From: Gluconacetobacter liquefaciens | Lineage (GTDB): Bacteria; Pseudomonadota; Alphaproteobacteria; Acetobacterales; Acetobacteraceae | Reading direction: 5' to 3' | Length of the DNA: 52,725 nucleotides | Assembly (NCBI RefSeq): GCF_003350405.1 | Contig: NZ_QQAW01000016.1 | Span: 1 to 52,725 of the forward strand | Shown: positions 36,631-45,358 of the stretch, piece after piece | Layout: the number at the start of each line of letters is the position of its first letter | Numbering within the stretch: position 1 is the first letter of the stretch | The notes under the pieces: generated by a model | Told to the model about the DNA's origin: nothing | The model's input: the letters and a program-made list of their open reading frames with translations, nothing else | The model's database searches: none | Made by a program: the position numbers and the translations under genes

Positions 36631-36716
36631 GACCGAAAGCATTCCAGAGCTTTCGCCCCGAGGGAAGCACGAAACGAAACCCGACACGGAATGCCCGAAA
36701 ACGGCCGGCCCGCCTT

Positions 36717-37148
36717 CTATCCCAGGTTCGCGAGGCGCATATTGGCGACGTTGGCCAGCGCCTGTGCCCGCCGCGCCTCCTGCTGTCCCTGGCTCAAATG
36801 GCGTTCGGCCAGAGAGAACGCATCATCGATACCGGCATCGAAATCCTTCGCCGCACTCATCTGTCGGATCGTCTGGTCCATCTCCAGCGTCGCCGCCTGG
36901 CAGCGCCCCGCGACAGTCCTGTTCGATGTCGCAAGAGCGTCCGCGATTCCCAGATGCTCTTTCAATACGTCTTCGTATGGGTCGAACCTGCCGTGAAAAA
37001 GCGATTGCGCCGCCCGGTCCCGCCATTTCTGGCGGCTCTCTTCGGTCGTCTCCAGCCATCGCGTCACGCTGAAGCCGGTCGCGGCACGCTCGTCTTCCGC
37101 ATGTTTCAGAAGCGTCAGCAGATAGGCAGCCTGATCGCCAAAACTCAC
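36717..37148 (-). CDS. Small helical protein of the FtsK/WXG100-like operon
   Basis: 143 residues, predicted all-helical and soluble, without signal peptide or membrane segment. It contains a tryptophan motif W42-R-D44 followed by RAAQSLF, similar in placement to the W43-Q-D45 of the 92-residue protein in the same operon. The ATG overlaps the stop codon of the coiled-coil gene (ATGA), so the two are coupled. It ends the operon. No family recognised. A third WXG100-like component or a chaperone are both possible. Confidence 0.7.
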   Translation of the reverse strand: MSFGDQAAYLLTLLKHAEDERAATGFSVTRWLETTEESRQKWRDRAAQSLFHGRFDPYEDVLKEHLGIADALATSNRTVAGRCQAATLEMDQTIRQMSAAKDFDAGIDDAFSLAERHLSQGQQEARRAQALANVANMRLANLG

Positions 37149-38140
37149 AATCCCGCTCCCCGATCAAACGCTCTCAGGATCTCGATCCTCTCCACCAGCC
37201 CACGCTGTGCCGCGCGCAGGATATCGCCGGCCTTCTCGCAAAGCGCCTTCAGATCAGAGACCATCGGCTTGACCGCATCGATGTCCGCGATCGCGGCGGC
37301 CATCCCGACCCGTGCCGTCTCGATGGCCTCGTCCGCCATCCGCGCATGCGACAGCCTGGAACTTGCCAGATGATGCGCCTTTCTCGCGGCGGTCGCCGCC
37401 TGCTCTCCTTCCCGCAATCCACCAAGCGCGATCTGCTCGGATTGCACGGCCTCCCCCCTGGCCTGCTCGGCCACTTCCAGCCGATTCAGGCAACGCTGTT
37501 CATGCGCTCTCGCCTGCACGAGCCGGTCCTGCGCCAGTTGCATGCGGGCGAACGCTGCATCGCAGGCATTCCGCGCGGCAGCACACTCGCCAGACGCACG
37601 GCTTACGGCGCCGGCTTCCCAGGAACAGTTCGGATAAATCCTGTTCCCTTCGGAATCCGTCCTGATCTGGGCACGGCAGCTACTCAAGGCGGCTTCCGCG
37701 CGTCTCAGCGCATCCGACGCCCGGTCATAGGCGGTCTGGGCTGCCCTGTATTGGCCCTGTGCCGCGTCATACGCCACTTCGGCATGATTACGCTCGGCCC
37801 GCGCGGCATTCAGTTCCACGGTGCATTGGCTGACAGCCCCCACGGCTCTGGCCAGCACGCCACGCGAAAAATCCAGTCCACGTCGGAAGCCGTTCACGGC
37901 CTCGTCGCTGCGCGCGATATCCCTGTTGCCGCGATCGACGCCCACACGCGCCTCCTGCACCAGCAGCGCCACGTCGCCCGACAAGCCCGCAATGACGGCC
38001 GCCAGATTTTCAAACGTCGACCTCAGCGCAAGATGCGCCTTGGCCTCGCTAGCCTGAAGACTGACAATCTGATTATAAGGACGCCGGATTTCATGATCCA
38101 GGTCCTCCATCAATATGATCAGGCCTCTCGGATCAAGCAT
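37145..38140 (-). CDS. Long coiled-coil, cysteine-containing protein of the FtsK/WXG100-like operon
   Basis: 331 residues, alanine-rich and strongly helical, with heptad patterns from about 60 to 320. Seven cysteines lie at 106, 155, 172, 186, 193, 217 and 301; those at 155-193 surround a break in the helices (RTDSEGNRIYPN), as in a hairpin tip held by disulfides. No signal peptide. The C-terminus RIEILRAFDRGAGL matches the tail of the 93-residue WXG100-like protein (IE-x-LRAFDR). An exported structural substrate or needle-like element is an inference; the family is not recognised. GGGAG precedes the ATG. Confidence 0.75.
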   Translation of the reverse strand: MLDPRGLIILMEDLDHEIRRPYNQIVSLQASEAKAHLALRSTFENLAAVIAGLSGDVALLVQEARVGVDRGNRDIARSDEAVNGFRRGLDFSRGVLARAVGAVSQCTVELNAARAERNHAEVAYDAAQGQYRAAQTAYDRASDALRRAEAALSSCRAQIRTDSEGNRIYPNCSWEAGAVSRASGECAAARNACDAAFARMQLAQDRLVQARAHEQRCLNRLEVAEQARGEAVQSEQIALGGLREGEQAATAARKAHHLASSRLSHARMADEAIETARVGMAAAIADIDAVKPMVSDLKALCEKAGDILRAAQRGLVERIEILRAFDRGAGL

Positions 38141-38347
38141 CGCATCGCTCCCGGATCAGGCAACGGGCCAGACATCGTGTCAGGCCCTGCCCAGCCATGT
38201 ACGGCGGCGGCGAACCCGACGCGCGCCTCCTGCGCTTCACGGCGGGCGGGCGTCACGACCGCTCCACTCCGACGCTCGGACACACATGACGGGCGCGCGC
38301 CCCGAAGGGCGGCTTTGCCTCACCCGCTCGCATTTTCAAACAGGCTC
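38141..38347. other. 207-bp gap inside the FtsK operon with a repeat end
   Basis: Unlike the overlapping genes around it, this stretch is non-coding. It holds a 12-bp palindrome (GGGCGCGCGCCC, 38291-38302) and, at 38333-38345, TTTTCAAACAGGC, which resembles one arm of the repeat at 32130-32191. It could weaken or re-start transcription between the WXG100-like pair and the coiled-coil gene. Confidence 0.5.
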
Positions 38348-38629
38348 TCAGGAGATCGACCCCGGCCGATCGAACGCCCGCAGGAACTCGATCTGGCGGC
38401 GCAGCACGTTCTGAAGATGCCGTGTTTCATGCTCGTATTGCCGCATTCTCGTGGTAGCGGCCAGAAAGGCAGCGCGAAACTCCTCGGCGGCAGCGCCCTG
38501 ATAGACATCCGACAGGCCATGCCAGGCGCGCTCCAGATCCTGGAACTCCTCCTGCAGAACCCCGAGGTGAATATCGAGCGCCCGGTCGTATTCAACCAGT
38601 TTCCCGATCAGGCGTGTCGCGTCGGTCAC
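38348..38629 (-). CDS. WXG100-like protein (93 residues)
   Basis: The GTG at 38629 shares bases with the stop of the 92-residue gene (GTGA). The product is 93 residues, two helices with a central turn: LERAWHGLSDVYQGAAAEEFRAAF. W36-H-G38 and Y43-Q-G45 both resemble the WXG turn of EsxA/EsxB-type proteins; the latter lies at the canonical position. There is no signal peptide. The tail RQIEFLRAFDRPGSIS is nearly identical to the end of the 331-residue coiled-coil protein. Its size, motif and location beside an EccC-like ATPase support the WXG100 superfamily; sequence similarity is only at motif level. Confidence 0.7.
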   Translation of the reverse strand: MTDATRLIGKLVEYDRALDIHLGVLQEEFQDLERAWHGLSDVYQGAAAEEFRAAFLAATTRMRQYEHETRHLQNVLRRQIEFLRAFDRPGSIS

Positions 38630-38904
38630 CAGTCGCCATCCAGATAGCGCTGAAGAAGCCGCGCCTTCTCCTCCATGACTGCCAGATACTGGGGGCCTTC
38701 CTTCGTGCACCACTGGCGCAGCCCGCTTTCCAGCGGTGCCCACGCGGCCTCGTAGTCGCGCGCGAACTTGTCCTGCCAGTCGTCGCGAGCGGCATCATGG
38801 CGCTCGGCAAGAAAACGATAGGTTTCGGCCAGCCGGTCGTTGAACCTGCCGAGCGACTGCTCGAACAGCTTCATCCGCTCGAAGGTGGTATCGAGTGACT
38901 CCAT
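38626..38904 (-). CDS. WXG100-sized protein with C-terminal YxxxD (92 residues)
   Basis: 92 residues, all-helical, with W43-Q-D45 at the position of the WXG motif (ARDDWQDKFARDYEAAW) and a C-terminus LLQRYLDGDW. Residues Y87 and D91 form a YxxxD motif like the secretion signal of ESX substrates. The start is 6 nt after the FtsK stop and its own stop overlaps the next WXG100-like gene, so the two probably make a heterodimer, as EsxA and EsxB do. No signal peptide. Glycine of the motif is replaced by aspartate, so membership is inferred from context. Confidence 0.68.
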   Translation of the reverse strand: MESLDTTFERMKLFEQSLGRFNDRLAETYRFLAERHDAARDDWQDKFARDYEAAWAPLESGLRQWCTKEGPQYLAVMEEKARLLQRYLDGDW

Positions 38905-38910
38905 GGCAAC

Positions 38911-41900
38911 TCAGTCCTCGGCTACGTCAGACATGTCCCAGGGCAGGAAACGGGTATAGCGATTGGCGTTGATGTCGGCCAGAAGCGCGGGCCGCGGGCC
39001 ACCGCCACTGGCCTGCAACATGGCGGCATTGCGATTGCCCAGCAGGTTCTGGCTGTCTTCCAGCGACATCTGTGTGCAGGCACGCCAGGCGAAATTCTCC
39101 ACGCGCCCACGCCGACCGAACGCATTTTCGACCATGCGGAATGTCGAGAAGAGAGCAATCGTATGCCGTCCCTTGCCCGGCCCTTCGCGCAGCCTGGCGT
39201 CCAGCGCATCCGGCCCCGGATTACGACTCAACGGATCAGTCGAACGCAGCAGCCCGCTCACGCGCTCCGGTTCGAACAGAACCAGCACGCCTTCGCCGCT
39301 GTCGGATGCCGCCAGATAGGACAGAATCTCGTCCTCTTCCCGCAGCGCCACGATCGCATCCCCGACATCGTCAAGAATCCGCGTGATTTCCGGCGCCGAC
39401 GATCCGTCGATGACGACGATCGTACCCCGCACCTCGGGCGCCAGTTGCAGCAGCGAGGCCAGCACCGCCCCCAGCATGGCGACGCGGGCCGAAAAGACAT
39501 CGCTCACGACCAGCAGGTTCTGCCCCTGTACGCGCCCCAGCACGCACAATGCCTCGCCATGGACGGCGAAAGCCCGCCCCAGAGACACCGGCACGGCGCG
39601 GTCCGAAACGCGCCATTCGCGCATTTCGAAGCCGCCCTCCGCCGCCGGACGGGTCGCGAGGGCAGCCAGATCCTGCGCATCGAGCGCCCCCCCCTTGCTG
39701 GCAAAGGTCCGCGACAGACTCATCTGGTCCATATGCGGCGGCGTATTGCCGTCAAAAAGCTGGGTGCGCGGGAAACGGGCACGCCGCTCCGCCGGCCATT
39801 GCGCGGCAAGCGCCTGCAGATCATCCAGCAGAGCATCACGGTCCTGGGGCGACACCAGAACGGCGCGTCCGAGATGGTTGAAGCCGTTGCGACCGCCATT
39901 GGTGTTCACGACCACCTTGCCGGGCATGTCGCATTTGCCGATCAGGTCTTTCCCTTCCCGCTCGAACTCGGTCATCCCCATCACGGTCGACGCCGGCAGG
40001 TTCATCGCCATGCGCAGATTGATGTTGTTGATGATCGAATCCGCATCCTGCATGCCGCTGACACGATAATTCTGCGAAACAAGCAGCATATGTACGCCCG
40101 CGGCTCGTCCCTGCTTCGAAAGATCCTTCAGGTTCTCCGAAACGGCGGTGCCATCATTATCCTGAAACAGCGCCTGGTATTCATCGATGATCAGCAGAAT
40201 TCTGGGCAGCGTGCCCCTGGGCGATCCGCTCTCGCGATATTGCTGCAGGTTCTGGCAGCCGGCCGGCCGGAAATACATGCTGTACCGGCGGTCGGCTTCC
40301 GCCTTCAGTTCCGCCAGAACCGCCTGCGCGAGTGCCGGATCGGAATTGAACGCCACGACCGCCGCATGCGGCAGCCGCGCATAAGGCTGGAATTCCACCC
40401 CCTGCTTCAGGTCCAGCAGATAGAGCTGCAGATCGTCGGGCGCATAATGCGTCGCCAGCCCCATGATCAGGGCGTGCAGCAGGTTGGATTTGCCCGAGCC
40501 CGCGCTCGCGGCCAGCATGCCATGCACGATCGAGGCCTCACCCGGCGGCTCGCCGAACATGACCGCCACCCCGTCATCACGCCCGCTCAGCGAGGTCTGG
40601 ATATGGGTATCGACATTGCCCTGCCACCGCTGGCCCGCCGGGCTGAGAATATCGCCGAACTGCGCGGAAGGCTGCTGCGAACGGGCATTCTGGATCTGCG
40701 CCAGGATCCGCATCTGCTGCGCCCCGGCCGGCGGAGAATCCGCATGCGGATTGGCGCCTTTCGTCAGGTCAATCACATAATGATCGCCCAGCGCGCCGAA
40801 ATCGACGCTGTGCGGCATGGGCGCATCGATATTGTGGTGCAGGATGATATAGCGGCCCGCCGCCGGCCCCGAATGGCTGATCGCCATCAGTCGGTTCAGA
40901 ACGTCATAATTATACTGCGCCCCCTGCGGGCAATCCGCCGCCACGATAATCTCGTAACGCTCATTCGCACGCTGTTCGGCCGGGATCGACTCGAAATCAC
41001 CATGAAACGCGACGATCCGCGTGATGATCCGCTGGATATCCGCCTGAATGTCCTTCAGGGCACCGGCATAATCTTCCCCCACCTCGCGCACCAGGGGCAG
41101 ATAGCTCATCATCGGGAAATTGCCACCCGAACGCAGCGGATCGAGCAACGTAAAGCGTACCAGATGCGGCAGCAGGCAGGACAGGCGCACGACAAGCGCC
41201 TGCATCAACTGATGCGCCCGCTCCGCATTGGCGTTATCCGACCGGATCACCCAACACCGGTCCCCCAGGAGCGGCAGAGAGGAAAAAGGCAGCAACGAAG
41301 CACCGGCGGCATCATGCCCGCCCCAGCGCAACTGCTGGCCGGCATTATCTCCCAGCGTGAAGGACAGCGTGCCGGCCGGGGCCCACTGCGCCCACTCCGC
41401 CGACCGGTCATATGTCCCCCCGCCCGGCCCGAAAGGCTCGTCCGCCTGAAAGGAGGCAACGAGCGGCAGAGGAAGACCGAAGAATTTATCGAGGAATTTC
41501 TTCTTCTTGTCACGCTCCGGGTCAAGGACGCTCTCAGGCTTGGCCGCTTCCTCAAGAAAGGCAACGCCATCGGCCAGAACCTGTGCGGCGGCCTTGATGG
41601 CAGCACCGTCGGCCGCATGGCTCTCCCGGACCGCCTTCATCACGTCGATCATGGCTTTGCTGATGGCCGCGACCGCCTGCGTTTGCGGCAACGCCTGCAA
41701 GGTTGCAATCAGGTCATTGGTCAACACCGCGATTTTGGTCGTCGCGGCAGCGGCTGTCATGACCGCCTGGGCCTTTTGATAATTGGCCGCCGATACCGCC
41801 GTGTCGCGCGCCCGGGACGCGGCGAACACGGCCTCCTGCGCGGCAATCAGACGATCTGCCATTTTCTCCGGATCGAAACCGTTCCCCGCCGAAAATTTCC

Positions 41901-42156
41901 TCAGCGCGGCGGCAATCGCAGCCGTTCCCTCCGGAGACTGGAAACGATTTTCCTTTACGAGCTTGAGCGCACCCATGAAATCGGCATCGGCATGCAGTGC
42001 CGCAACCATCGCCTGCGCATGTTCGAGTTGCTGTTCGCTCTGCGTCATCGTCAGCAACAGCGCCTTGCCGTCGGGCGTTTCCGGCAGCTTTTCCACCGCC
42101 GCGCGGGCCTGCCGGACCTGGGCGAGCAGTTCGTCGGACTTTGATGTATCAGCCAA
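38911..42156 (-). CDS. FtsK/SpoIIIE (EccC-like) ATPase
   Basis: About 1081 residues from a TTG at 42156 (TGGAG 8-12 nt upstream, overlapping the preceding gene by 8 nt); a longer reading frame to 42177 lacks this signal. Domains: alanine-rich coiled coil (1-230); a degenerate ATPase module (about 295-470, Walker A replaced by VIRSDNANAERA); an intact FtsK/SpoIIIE module (about 540-830) with Walker A AASAGSGKSN near 552 and Walker B ILLIIDEYQALF near 655; a C-terminal degenerate module (about 865-1060, VLGRVQGQNLLVV and TIVVIDGSS). Tandem modules with one active member resemble EccC of type VII secretion. There are no membrane helices, and no DNA-sorting gamma domain of true FtsK was recognised. 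Confidence 0.9.
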   Translation of the reverse strand: MADTSKSDELLAQVRQARAAVEKLPETPDGKALLLTMTQSEQQLEHAQAMVAALHADADFMGALKLVKENRFQSPEGTAAIAAALRKFSAGNGFDPEKMADRLIAAQEAVFAASRARDTAVSAANYQKAQAVMTAAAATTKIAVLTNDLIATLQALPQTQAVAAISKAMIDVMKAVRESHAADGAAIKAAAQVLADGVAFLEEAAKPESVLDPERDKKKKFLDKFFGLPLPLVASFQADEPFGPGGGTYDRSAEWAQWAPAGTLSFTLGDNAGQQLRWGGHDAAGASLLPFSSLPLLGDRCWVIRSDNANAERAHQLMQALVVRLSCLLPHLVRFTLLDPLRSGGNFPMMSYLPLVREVGEDYAGALKDIQADIQRIITRIVAFHGDFESIPAEQRANERYEIIVAADCPQGAQYNYDVLNRLMAISHSGPAAGRYIILHHNIDAPMPHSVDFGALGDHYVIDLTKGANPHADSPPAGAQQMRILAQIQNARSQQPSAQFGDILSPAGQRWQGNVDTHIQTSLSGRDDGVAVMFGEPPGEASIVHGMLAASAGSGKSNLLHALIMGLATHYAPDDLQLYLLDLKQGVEFQPYARLPHAAVVAFNSDPALAQAVLAELKAEADRRYSMYFRPAGCQNLQQYRESGSPRGTLPRILLIIDEYQALFQDNDGTAVSENLKDLSKQGRAAGVHMLLVSQNYRVSGMQDADSIINNINLRMAMNLPASTVMGMTEFEREGKDLIGKCDMPGKVVVNTNGGRNGFNHLGRAVLVSPQDRDALLDDLQALAAQWPAERRARFPRTQLFDGNTPPHMDQMSLSRTFASKGGALDAQDLAALATRPAAEGGFEMREWRVSDRAVPVSLGRAFAVHGEALCVLGRVQGQNLLVVSDVFSARVAMLGAVLASLLQLAPEVRGTIVVIDGSSAPEITRILDDVGDAIVALREEDEILSYLAASDSGEGVLVLFEPERVSGLLRSTDPLSRNPGPDALDARLREGPGKGRHTIALFSTFRMVENAFGRRGRVENFAWRACTQMSLEDSQNLLGNRNAAMLQASGGGPRPALLADINANRYTRFLPWDMSDVAED

Positions 42157-42736
42157 GAAAATATCTCCATACACCAAAAGCGATGAGGCCGATCAGGCCG
42201 AGTTTCACGATCATGCCGCCACACCCGCTCGCGGGTGCCTTGAAAGCGCCGACAAGAGTTTGGGCACGCACCACTACCAATTGCAGGTCCTGCTGGCTGG
42301 ATGCGAGTCCCTGGCCGGTTGCGCCATCCATTCCCAGCAGAAAATCTTTCCCCGCGTTGCGCTCTCTTTGCAGGGTGCCGGTCGCGGTATCGACCGCGTT
42401 CTGCGGCGCGGCGAGAAATTGAGCAATGAGGGTCTTCGCCTGCTCTTCCGTGGGGCTGATCGGCTTGATAGCGTTCATAAAGTCCTGACGGCTCTTTATC
42501 AGCACGTTCAATGCCGTCGTAAGCGCAGTAAAGATCTGCGATGAATCGCGAATAACCGGTTCGCAATCCGGCCAGGATTGCGTATCCTTGCCCTTCATCT
42601 CTATCAGCTTGTCGACGAGGTCTCCAATCCGGGACTGAACCTCAGCAAAATCCTCTTTGGCTCCACGCAGAGCCGCCAAATCATGGGACACCCAGTCAAG
42701 GTCAAATCTTTGGCCAGCCGCCATATCCGTTCCCAT
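42149..42736 (-). CDS. Tail-anchored helical membrane protein of the FtsK operon
   Basis: 195 residues. A soluble, helical, charged N-terminal part (about 1-165) is followed by a single C-terminal hydrophobic helix (MIVKLGLIGLIAFGVWRYF), so the bulk probably faces the cytoplasm. It is the first gene of the operon and overlaps the FtsK start. The FtsK protein lacks membrane helices, unlike EccC, so this protein may dock the ATPase to the membrane (inference). The second in-frame ATG at 42724 is an alternative start. Family not recognised. Confidence 0.75.
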   Translation of the reverse strand: MGTDMAAGQRFDLDWVSHDLAALRGAKEDFAEVQSRIGDLVDKLIEMKGKDTQSWPDCEPVIRDSSQIFTALTTALNVLIKSRQDFMNAIKPISPTEEQAKTLIAQFLAAPQNAVDTATGTLQRERNAGKDFLLGMDGATGQGLASSQQDLQLVVVRAQTLVGAFKAPASGCGGMIVKLGLIGLIAFGVWRYFLG

Positions 42737-43082
42737 TCCAAATAATCATCTCTACAAGGCACCGGAAATTGGCGTCAGACCAGCAGAGACCGCACGCTGG
42801 CCATAGAAGTCGCACATTTTTCTTGAGCGTGCAATTCGCGATCCATTCTCCCATTCAGGGCAACACGCCCCCGCCCGCCGCCGACATATGGGCATCATGC
42901 GCCCTCCCCCGGACCTCGACACGCCTCCATTTTCAATATATTTCTACTTTCCGGTCAATAAGATACTCCTTCAAACGCCGTCGCCGCACGGAAACCCGAC
43001 CCTCCGGGCTTCAAGAGATCATTCCATAATGGGGGCATCCCCTGTCTTGTGTTTTTTCTGATAAAATGGGATCGGTGCCATC
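42737..43082. promoter_or_regulatory. Divergent promoter region between FtsK operon and membrane-protein gene
   Basis: 346 bp with no convincing gene, noticeably more AT-rich than the surroundings at about 42930-42965 and 43040-43070. It must hold the promoters of both the leftward operon and the rightward membrane protein. A small hairpin GGGG-CA-CCCC-like stretch lies near 43031-43042. I cannot assign -35/-10 boxes with confidence. Confidence 0.45.
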
Positions 43083-44114
43083 ATGAATACAATGCAGTTG
43101 TCTCCACAAACGCTTTCGATTGCGCGACAATGGCGCAAATGGAAAGCCGGACCGGTCCTGTTTTTTATTTCAGCCCTATTTTTAGCCGCGAACCTTCTGT
43201 ACCTGGTTGCGCTATCCTATCCGCAGCCATTCAATGAAATAGCCGTCTATCGCATCATTTTCGGCATGGTGCTCACCGGGTTCAGCGGGGCGGCTCTCTG
43301 GTACGGCTGGCGTTTTTTCAGTCGTTTCTTTGACGGGGACAGCCAGTCGAAACGTGGCGTCTTCGGCGGATTATTCCGCTTCCTGGCGCTGGGCGTGCTG
43401 CTCAGTATCGTCTGTTTCGGCATTCAGGCTCTTCTGGTCAGCCAGATGACACGCTCCATGGCGACCAGGGCCGTCGGCAACCCGTCAATGCGCGGAACGG
43501 TCTCCGCCTATATAACGCCAGGCTTGGAAGACCCCCAGAACCCCCATGTCTCCCCGCCATCGGATATTGCGGTCCGCTCGCTGGCGAACCTGCTCTCGGT
43601 TACGAATTTTCCGTTGCCGTTCAACGCATCTCCCGATGAGCCCTGGACTGCATTGCTGTCAGGCCCGCGCTCCGACATCAATATCGGGCCGTTCATTGCG
43701 TTCTGTACGGCGCAGGCAGCGCAAAGGCATGACCGCCACGGATCATGCCTGACCAATGGCTACAACAACGTGCTGGGCGGGATGATTGTCAGTTTCTTTT
43801 TTATACAGGTTGCATGGGTCTGTGCCCTCGCCTGCCTTTTCAGCCTCGTGCGCGCCTGCTTCCTCTGGTTCCGCCCGGTCACCCGCCTGCCCGGCATCAC
43901 GTCGGCTTTGATCGTCTTTGCTATTGGTCTGGCTTTTTACGAAATCCCTGCCCACTCCAACTCTGGCAGCACGATTGACGGCATTCTCGCATCCAGCGTT
44001 TCGGGTGATCATGCTCCGTTTGTCTCACTATTCGTTACGACAATCGGCAGGGCCGAAATTCACGTCATCTCATGGCTGGCACCCCTGGCATCACTGCTGC
44101 CGGGACTGACGTAG
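43083..44114 (+). CDS. Multi-pass membrane protein divergent to the FtsK operon
   Basis: 343 residues. Hydrophobic helices at about 24-45, 55-80 and 97-117 are followed by a periplasmic or cytoplasmic loop of about 110 residues, then helices near 228-255 and 270-287 and a weakly hydrophobic C-terminus. The loop contains two cysteines (AFCTAQ, GSCLTNG) that could form a disulfide if periplasmic. No family recognised. The divergent arrangement suggests, but does not prove, that it works with the FtsK/WXG100-like genes, for example as the channel. Confidence 0.7.
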   Translation: MNTMQLSPQTLSIARQWRKWKAGPVLFFISALFLAANLLYLVALSYPQPFNEIAVYRIIFGMVLTGFSGAALWYGWRFFSRFFDGDSQSKRGVFGGLFRFLALGVLLSIVCFGIQALLVSQMTRSMATRAVGNPSMRGTVSAYITPGLEDPQNPHVSPPSDIAVRSLANLLSVTNFPLPFNASPDEPWTALLSGPRSDINIGPFIAFCTAQAAQRHDRHGSCLTNGYNNVLGGMIVSFFFIQVAWVCALACLFSLVRACFLWFRPVTRLPGITSALIVFAIGLAFYEIPAHSNSGSTIDGILASSVSGDHAPFVSLFVTTIGRAEIHVISWLAPLASLLPGLT

Positions 44115-44152
44115 GCACCCCGCCGGCAAAGCCGCAGGGCGTTACGCACCCC

Positions 44153-44195
44153 AATAAAAAACGCTCTGTGCAAGTCATAAGACTCACACAGAGCG
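44153..44195 (-). terminator. Rho-independent terminator after leuB
   Basis: CGCTCTGTG / CACAGAGCG (44162-44195) with an inner AGTC/GACT extension forms a long stem. On the minus strand it is followed by TTTTTT (complement of 44156-44161). It lies 51 nt after leuB and could also end the convergent membrane-protein transcript. Confidence 0.92.
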
Positions 44196-44245
44196 CAATC
44201 GGGACATGACCTTGCGTGCCGCGCCCCAGAGCGGCACGGCCATTC

Positions 44246-45358
44246 TCAACCGTTCAGCTTGTCCAGTTCGCGCACCACGGCCTCGCCCATCACGGACGTA
44301 CCGACCTGGGCCATGCCCGGGCTCATGATGTCGGCGGTCCGCAGCCCGCTGGCCAGCACGTTGGCCACCGCCTGCTCGATCAGCGCGGCTTCCGCTTCCA
44401 TCGCGAAGGAATAGCGCAGCAGCATCGCGAACGAGAGGATCTGCGCCAGCGGATTGGCGATCCCCTTGCCGGCGATATCCGGCGCACTGCCATGGATCGG
44501 CTCATACAGCGCCGGACGTCGCCCTTCGCCGTCCACCGCACCCAGCGTGGCCGAAGGCAGCATGCCCAGGCTGCCGGTCAGCATCGATGCCAGGTCAGAG
44601 AGCAGGTCGCCGAACAGGTTGCCGGTCACGATCACGTCGAACTGGCGCGGATTGCGCACAAGCTGCATGGCGCAATTATCGGCCAGCATGTGGGTCAGTT
44701 CCACATCGGCATACTCGCGGGCATGCAGCGCGGTCACGACCTCCTTCCACAGCAGGCCGCTTTCCATCACGTTGCATTTCTCGACCGAGCAGACGCGCTT
44801 GCCGCGCTGGCGTGCCAGGTCGAAGGCCACCCGCGCCACACGCTCGATCTCGGACGTGGTGTAGATTTCGGTATTGATGCCGCGCTTCGTGCCGTCCGGC
44901 AGCGTCTCGATGCCGCGCGGCGTGCCGAAATAGATGCCGCCCACCGATTCGCGGACGATCATGATATCCAGCCCGGCGACAACTTCGGGCTTCAGCGTGC
45001 TGGCCTCGGCCAGGGCATCGAACACCTTGGCGGGGCGCAGGTTGGCGAACAGCCCCAGTTCCTGCCGCAATTTCAGGATCGCGACCTCCGGCCGGAGGTC
45101 GAAGCCGACCGACGCCCATTTCGGATCGCCGACCGAGCCGAACAGTACCGCATCCGCCGCGCGGGCTGCCACGATCACCTCATCACGGATCGGCACGCCA
45201 TGCACAGCCAGCGACGCACCACCGACCAGATCCTCGGAAATATCGAAGGCAATCCCACGCGCCCGGCCCATCCACGCCACGACGCGCGCGACCTCGGTCA
45301 TCACCTCGGGGCCGATCCCGTCGCCGGGCAGGACAAGGAGCTTTTTGGTAACGGTCAT
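44246..45358 (-). CDS. leuB: 3-isopropylmalate dehydrogenase
   Basis: A 370-residue NAD-dependent enzyme of leucine synthesis. Visible: [34 protein letters not shown], the catalytic-lysine block [23 protein letters not shown] and [18 protein letters not shown]. The residue after the lysine is cysteine, where alanine is common. Last gene of leuCDB; 43 bp after leuD. Confidence 0.97.

Follow-up and report, generated by a model that had tools for sequence, protein, structure and literature searches.

The contig NZ_QQAW01000016.1 of Gluconacetobacter liquefaciens (assembly GCF_003350405.1), analysed here over a stretch of 52,725 nucleotides that we call the window, carries an insert of about 7.5 kb with a compact operon for an EccC-like ATPase, WXG100-like helical proteins and a putative tail-anchored (TA) protein. 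The insert consists of six minus-strand genes, which span 36717-42736 and are named here TA, ATPase, s1, s2, cc and h in their order of reading, and of one divergent membrane gene on the plus strand (Table 1). All seven open reading frames (ORFs) lie exactly where an earlier note on this DNA had placed them. The same note had the genes mostly overlapping by 4-8 nt, which describes three junctions (8 nt for TA/ATPase, 4 nt each for s1/s2 and cc/h) and not the other two, with gaps of 6 nt between ATPase and s1 and of 207 nt between s2 and cc. The start of s2 is most likely the GTG at 38629, part of a GTGA overlap of 4 nt with s1, and gives a protein of 93 residues rather than the 131 of the longer ORF; that of the ATPase is probably the TTG at 42156, which yields its 8-nt overlap with the TA gene.

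Table 1. The insert and its features (window positions).
Feature	Position	Strand	Basis
Whole insert, between S9 peptidase gene and leuB	36688..44245		Flank comparison with genus genomes
h, 143-aa WxD-motif helical protein	36717..37148	-	Alignment
cc, 331-aa helical hairpin protein	37145..38140	-	AlphaFold2 model
s2, 93-aa WXG100-like helical protein	38348..38629	-	Profile matches EsxB, EsxA
s1, 92-aa WXG100-like helical protein	38626..38904	-	Profile matches HP0062
EccC-like three-domain FtsK/SpoIIIE-fold ATPase, N-terminal helical region	38911..42156 (start probable)	-	
TA, 195 aa, one C-terminal hydrophobic segment at about residues 173-189	42149..42736	-	
Intergenic region between divergent genes, presumed promoter region	42737..43082	.	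Weak promoter-like match
Multi-pass membrane protein, 343 aa, divergent	43083..44114	+	Five hydrophobic segments
Terminator-like hairpin after leuB	44161..44196	-	16-pair stem, then T run

The gene set recurs in other genomes; its absence from them was among the outcomes that the earlier note would have taken as a refutation. A scan of genome contigs returned 46 loci: 35 with a long match to the ATPase (L037-L071, the relatives), three more distant ones (L072-L074) and eight with the central domain only. The order ATPase-s1-s2-cc is kept in 35/35 near-full-length relatives, a count in which s1 of eight gammaproteobacterial loci is assigned by size and position only, the ATPase is cut by a contig end or broken in four (L060, L063, L066 and L070), and near-identical, hence not independent, loci are retained (four from Microcystis; the pairs L047/L069, L050/L053, L051/L071, L055/L067 and L056/L057). 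The h gene is present in 33 of the 35; the contig of L040 ends, and none was found in L044, where a toxin gene stands instead.

These relatives belong to Pseudomonadota, Cyanobacteriota, Bacteroidota, Gemmatimonadota, Verrucomicrobiota and Chloroflexota, six phyla in all, to which a Deinococcus plasmid has to be added; L037 is from Neokomagataea anthophila. The plasmid has the identical six-gene order, with BLAST matches to the ATPase (4e-123), s1 (1e-15), s2 (1e-14) and cc (2e-5); its h and TA genes correspond by place and size only. The system is sparsely distributed: we found it in 4/395 genomes of the window's order (own genome included), in 5/388 of the class of L044, three of these matches being weak, and, as judged by cc, in 15/296 of the family of L049, one of them a CoCoNuT-type locus. 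No ortholog was found in 13 other genomes of the genus, 12 of which gave a single generic FtsK match of about 25-30 bits and one (G013) none. A scan of viral contigs yielded 36 loci with matches around the central ATPase domain only, none at full length.

Within the genus the site is empty elsewhere. In 11 of the 13 genomes, matches to leuB (a name given from sequence without a family search) and to the S9 peptidase gene (identified by Pfam) lie 30-140 bp apart; the remaining two, G004 and G012, have leuB and no peptidase ortholog. A contig end truncates the peptidase gene of G013, and that of G001 has an internal stop. Left flank alignments end between 36474 and 36675, right ones begin at 44245-44250, and no target-site duplication was established at the insert. 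By these comparisons the operon is mobile, on the strength of the empty site and of the plasmid copy in Deinococcus.

The ATPase matches the Pfam domain FtsK_SpoIIIE (1.4e-23) and, over the active domain (residues 552-714), the EccCa model (1.6e-28; 99.9 bits, where the full-length cut-off is 509). EccC is its best match in the PDB by sequence (4nh0, 4.9e-30). The same entry heads the Foldseek search, with 6.8e-27 over 963 columns versus 1.8e-14 for FtsK, at TM-scores that are low (0.34 by query) when whole multi-domain chains are compared; the AlphaFold2 model of the protein has a pLDDT (predicted local distance difference test) of 80.8 and a pTM (predicted template modelling score) of 0.58. 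Walker motifs occur in the central domain only, GSGKS at 560-564 and DEYQ at 665-668 in the numbering of the 1088-aa ORF 38911-42177. This pattern is general: a single GxGKS in the middle domain, a DE[YFV][QH] Walker B motif and no other GxxxxGK[ST] are found in 36/36 aligned ATPases (window, Deinococcus, 31 of the 35 relatives and L072-L074).

A tree of the active domain unites the window and Deinococcus sequences, the included members of L037-L071 and L201-L203 in one clade with support 1.0. CoCoNuT-type ATPases (Caballeronia, L204), those of Helicobacter and Rhodococcus, L072-L074, EccC/EssC and FtsK all fall outside it, in a tree built on one short domain with few outgroups, where several branches in and outside the clade are weakly supported. 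The Rhodococcus copy lies on a plasmid (L034:2241-8837), behind genes for Hsp70, TPR and GrpE proteins, and is followed by a 203-aa protein with, by eye, a hydrophobic stretch at its end.

The earlier note's identification of an EccC-like ATPase therefore holds in the sequence and structure-model comparisons, and so does its view that a Gram-negative bacterium here has an EccC/WXG100 set which is both reduced and distinct, and separate from the DNA translocase FtsK. An FtsK/SpoIIIE relative acting on DNA in mobilisation or segregation, with the helical proteins as structural partners, would account for the FtsK_SpoIIIE domain and for the plasmid copies (L033 and, in cousin clades, L035 and L036). 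We nevertheless regard it as very improbable: EccC is closer than FtsK in both sequence and fold, the ATPase has its own tree branch, WXG100-like partners are conserved beside it, and no relaxase, integrase or recombinase was matched among the insert genes.

Taken singly, the two small window proteins score 16.1 and 19.1 bits against PF06013, under its cut-off of 27.3. At E<=0.01 that family is matched by 18/23 members of s2 and 8/23 of s1. The WXG100 label that the earlier note gave to both is thus weak for the individual proteins but holds for their families. In s2 a YxGxAA motif replaces WxG, with G44 and A47 invariant in 23/23; s1 has WxD in the turn and an invariant C-terminal YL. Searched against the PDB, the s2 profile finds EsxB (4j41, 1.1e-4), EsxA (2vs0, 6e-4) and HP0062 (0.013), and the s1 profile has HP0062 (3fx7, E 1e-4) as its best match, in agreement with the supposed likeness to helical hairpins; unrelated coiled coils appear at nearby E-values, namely spike HR1 constructs (9e-4) in the s2 list and apolipoprotein (0.0025) in the s1 list.

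AlphaFold2 models cc (pLDDT 92.6, pTM 0.59) as a pair of helices, each about 155 residues long, which a loop (158-172) between Cys155 and Cys172 connects. This Cys pair is common among members and absent from most gammaproteobacterial ones. A fold search brought up generic long coiled coils, chemoreceptor stalks among them. As a long helical hairpin, cc also recalls the LXG toxins of type VII secretion systems (T7SS). In h, W42 and D44 of the WxD motif are invariant in 24/24 aligned sequences. Profile cross-matches among s1, s2, h and cc were set aside as a sign of common descent, as they may reflect shared helical character.

By hydropathy, the window ATPase lacks the N-terminal membrane helices that T7SS ATPases have of their own: its N-terminal maximum is 1.45, 29 other complete N-termini reach at most 1.49, and values of 2.06-2.62 occur only in L050, L052 and L053 (33 complete N-termini). 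A gene for a TA-type protein, with one hydrophobic segment <=45 residues from the C-terminus, adjoins 29/35 operons as well as those of the window and Deinococcus. It lies upstream of the ATPase gene, or downstream of h in L043, L045, L063 and L070; in some of the proteins, such as those of Microcystis, some 30 residues follow the hydrophobic segment. The candidates were chosen by position and inspection, and 30/31 pass an automatic test for the TA layout that is passed by 11/127 control ORFs (other ORFs of 110-250 aa in the same loci and in L072-L074, spurious ones included). The sole miss, L041, has a second hydrophobic stretch. In the Anaerolineae operon L043, the downstream TA gene is followed by one for a HerA-like ATPase (DUF87; L043:7897-10566).

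TA sequences do not align among relatives; a TA profile search found its two seeds only, and as a sequence family TA is present in 1/299 genomes, the own one. In six of the 35 operons no such gene was found. In three of these (L050, L052 and L053) the hydrophobic segment is found in the N-terminus of the ATPase instead, contig ends truncate L040 and L060, and in L066 a protein encoded after h has a PEGA domain and one strong hydrophobic segment. We infer from this either-or arrangement, the main new structural point of this work, that the ATPase would be attached to the membrane either by a TA protein or by a segment of its own. Two more distant relatives from the window's own family count against a universal anchor rule: L201 and L202 have, directly upstream of the ATPase gene and hence in the usual place of TA, a gene for a Sel1-repeat protein (L201:12205-15543, 1112 aa; L202:12243-15995, at least 1250 aa). 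We found no description of a TA gene of this operon in the literature searched, which held few subscription papers.

Some relatives carry enzymes in the helical slots. In L044 an s2-like domain is fused to Tox-REase-2 (39.1 bits, cut-off 27.6), and the next gene encodes a 125-aa protein without a Pfam match. Both have counterparts outside such operons: the cyanobacterial loci L215 (5574-6456) and L216 (2006-2841) encode Tox-REase-2 proteins 68% and 65% identical to that of L044 beside a 125-aa partner (58% and 56%), with no WXG domain; L212 (3888-4378) keeps a toxin remnant followed by the partner, and for L213 and L214 no Tox-REase-2 was found next to the partner. In the tabulated material of Zhang et al. 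(2012, PMC3482391), Tox-REase-2 is confined to Actinobacteria and has no immunity protein listed. In both L041 and L044, cc ends in a GNAT domain that scores above the Pfam cut-offs.

A further example comes from the cousin clade, on the Helicobacter plasmid pNHP190012_1 (L035), which has genes for a WXG100 protein, a coiled coil with a nuclease domain, a SUKH protein, a 77-aa product and the ATPase, in this order. The C-terminus of the coiled-coil protein matches WHH (44.6 bits, cut-off 25.1) and Colicin-DNase (36.4, cut-off 25); the WXG100 protein reaches 24 bits, under the cut-off of 27.3, and matches the s1 and s2 profiles (2e-8 and 2e-9). The SUKH product matches SMI1/KNR4 (29.1, cut-off 25.4). 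SUKH/SMI1 is an immunity family, and it also stands in the tables of Zhang et al. (2012, PMC3482391). The layout of polymorphic toxins, with a conserved N-terminus, a swapped toxin and an adjacent antidote-type gene, is seen in L044, partly in L041 and in the cousin L035; the window copy has no matched toxin. We did not count as toxin fusions an ART-like match in L052 (E 0.22), an HNH-like stretch seen by eye at the N-terminus in L060 (no Pfam match at 0.5) or a WXG-nuclease in L041 (15 bits versus a cut-off of 27). A fusion of WXG domain and toxin with its partner in this operon is likewise not described in the literature searched.

The divergent membrane gene has a match in its own genome only (14 genus genomes compared), which argues that it arrived with or beside the operon. 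It is part of the insert and a mere candidate for membership in the system, since it has no match in the 13 other genus genomes or among ORFs called beside other operons. A promoter-like match at 42958-42929 on the minus strand (9/12) is weak, as four such sites were found against 1.7 (standard deviation 1.4) expected by chance. A terminator-like hairpin after leuB would shield the insert from leu transcription; the scan found four such sites versus 5.8 expected, and stem length alone favours this one.

The earlier note knew of no described function for this arrangement in acetic acid bacteria; that nothing like it is described finds no support, as such ATPase/WXG pairs in Gram-negatives are mentioned in two papers. 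Zhang et al. (2012, PMC3482391, Table 1 note 6) report, from several Gram-negative lineages, solo WXG domains together with a distinct, YueA-like ATPase that has three FtsK domains and activity in the middle one alone, and state that these sets 'appear to be mobile versions of T7SS'. The three-domain ATPase with its middle domain alone active, the WXG100-like partners, mobility and Gram-negative phyla are all shared with our operon. The passages concerned list beta-, epsilon- and gammaproteobacteria, whereas the window is alphaproteobacterial (Acetobacteraceae), and they do not give the operon anatomy, the TA anchor or the cc and h genes.

The second paper (PMC11090510) describes the CoCoNuT version of the pair and, in its relevant part, notes that the ATPase has no membrane helices, supposes another mechanism, and cites Anantharaman et al. 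2012 for the stand-alone form; a DNA-mimic role is named in the paper too. The Type III-A CoCoNuTs of Caballeronia (pSBC2-5 L036, and L204) share with the window an EssC-like ATPase with one active domain and an N-terminal coiled coil, WXG100 proteins, and a coiled-coil protein, there with a nuclease domain, that matches the cc profile at 4e-15. They differ in that the window operon is stand-alone, without VWA, CARF, kinase/phosphatase or McrBC parts among its seven insert genes, has an ATPase of a separate clade, and includes the TA gene and the WxD gene h. A WXG100 secretion cluster is also named for H. pylori (in part of PMC4978471). The Helicobacter clusters (HP0062/HP0066; L035) resemble ours in their EccC-like ATPase, WXG100 and coiled-coil proteins, HP0062 being the PDB entry that the s1 family matches best, and differ by the other ATPase clade and by the coiled-coil protein of L035, which ends in a WHH nuclease and precedes a SUKH gene.

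The EccC/EssC-type ATPase and WXG100 proteins are likewise common to T7SSa and T7SSb (ESX/Ess) and to T7SSc-j, which are Gram-positive according to the relevant sections of PMC11217815. Unlike all of these, the window system has no membrane helices in its ATPase, has a separate TA protein and belongs to two-membrane hosts. No EccB/D/E, EssA, EssB, EsaA, YukD or mycosin was matched among the seven insert genes, a genome-wide search not having been made. By its parts, the system would work like the motor-substrate core of a T7SS; membership in the canonical T7SS fails for want of a membrane anchor within the ATPase itself.

We propose that the operon is a mobile, stand-alone, type VII-like export module, mostly of two-membrane bacteria, with a likely use in toxin delivery during bacterial competition, and give this reading an even chance. 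The TA protein and the N-terminal helices of the ATPase would dock to each other and hold the ATPase ring at the inner membrane. The ATPase would drive s1/s2 across the membrane, along with whatever is fused to them; s1 and s2, with cc and h, would be substrates or targeting factors, and the cargo of the window copy may be cc, h or something encoded elsewhere. Export itself is inferred. Toxin delivery is the likely use because a few relatives have a nuclease or an acetyltransferase fused to a protein in the hairpin or coiled-coil position, twice beside antidote-type genes. In favour of the anchoring scheme, the three ATPases with an N-terminal hydrophobic segment (L050, L052, L053) all belong to operons for which no TA gene was found. 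The fuller version, an autonomous mobile export machine whose EccC-type motor is tethered by a dedicated TA protein replacing the T7SS membrane complex, and which delivers swappable toxins with their antidotes as a Gram-negative branch of T7SS, we put forward tentatively, at somewhat less than an even chance.

Several points weigh against toxin export. Pfam-supported enzyme fusions occur in only 2/35 close relatives (L041 and L044), and a second, fused copy of s2 was found only in the genomes of the same two (s2-profile search of the genomes of 28 of the 35 relatives); none was found in the window genome, and Pfam matched no toxin domain in the window copy. The Helicobacter and Caballeronia examples fall in a neighbouring ATPase clade, and the match of the L035 coiled coil to the cc profile is not significant (E 0.025). 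The stand-alone pairs L215 and L216 could be toxin-antitoxin modules. Neither channel proteins of the EccB/D/E or EssB/EsaA kind nor an outer-membrane part were matched in the insert, the rest of the genome not having been searched. We know of no secretion experiment on such a system. The operons that hold CoCoNuT-type relatives are predicted to serve intracellular defence, as part of PMC11090510 describes, and neighbours of 24 loci match 28 PADLOC families.

The last two points belong to the main rival to export, an intracellular conflict system of an anti-phage or abortive kind. Here the ATPase, on a trigger, would remodel or release the hairpin and coiled-coil proteins in the same cell, fused enzymes would hit that cell, and TA would serve for localisation only. 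In Type III-A CoCoNuT operons, the related set of ATPase, WXG100 and coiled-coil-nuclease proteins indeed occurs together with genes for VWA, CARF nuclease, kinase and phosphatase proteins; the ATPase there is of another clade than that of the window. The window operon is also mobile and patchy (4/395 genomes of the order). As for the neighbours, 69 proteins from 24 loci match the 28 PADLOC families at E<=1e-5, mostly as single proteins; they are the nearest 69 of 191 ORFs (>=150 aa), chosen by hand in 24 of the 35 loci, with no background set, so enrichment is undecided. The stronger matches are PDC-S71 (4e-198), mad3 and AriA (three each), JAB, E1-E2, TRIP13 and a phospholipase effector, yet the commonest Pfam families of the same 69 proteins are ABC transporters, response regulators and AAA_21 (3/69 each). 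The window insert, between leuB and the peptidase gene, holds no defence gene; the PADLOC matches of its ATPase to SspH and mad8 cover the shared FtsK-type domain only. The toxin-partner pairs of L044 and L035 are compatible, among other readings, with a cell protecting itself from a toxin that it exports. Altogether, we consider an intracellular role unlikely, while leaving it appreciable weight. SspH, mad8 and LmuB identities of window proteins were rejected as FtsK-domain or coiled-coil matches. Behind a Microcystis operon (L042:13552-17945) come a 181-aa JAB/MPN-like gene and a 1252-aa gene resembling nucleoside triphosphatases, both recognised by eye, which suggests linkage to conflict systems there.

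After h, seven operons of Vibrionaceae (L047, L049, L054, L056, L057, L061 and L069) have two further genes of 473-511 and 787-799 aa. Those of L049 (13522-17392) encode a GDPD-domain protein, whose start looks lipoprotein-like by eye, and a second protein with five hydrophobic segments; the two genes are possibly extra envelope parts. An envelope-only machine, which would move helical proteins no further than the inner membrane or periplasm and there serve to maintain or assemble the surface, could draw on these seven of the 35 relatives, all Vibrionaceae, with the GDPD-family and five-segment proteins of L049, and on the PEGA-domain protein of L066. It would have no toxin role in most hosts, the fusions being occasional hijackings, as their low number (2/35) would allow. 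A housekeeping role would not lead one to expect a patchy, mobile distribution, and antidote-type genes adjoin the toxin-bearing members; we hold this alternative for quite improbable.

The T7SS is customarily presented as belonging to Actinomycetota and Bacillota. Already known are ATPase/WXG pairs as mobile versions of T7SS (in the pertinent note of PMC3482391) and in CoCoNuT operons (in part of PMC11090510); new here, as far as sequence comparison goes, appears to be the TA-type gene beside most operons and the membrane segment in the ATPase of three others. For the stand-alone form, the TA gene is a concrete, testable answer to the puzzle of an ATPase without membrane helices, raised in the part of PMC11090510 concerned with it. 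A toxin and its partner gene within one such operon make the question of export versus intracellular action directly testable. Finally, a compact mobile relative with a separate anchor could show the minimal set for EccC-driven transport, in culturable non-pathogens.

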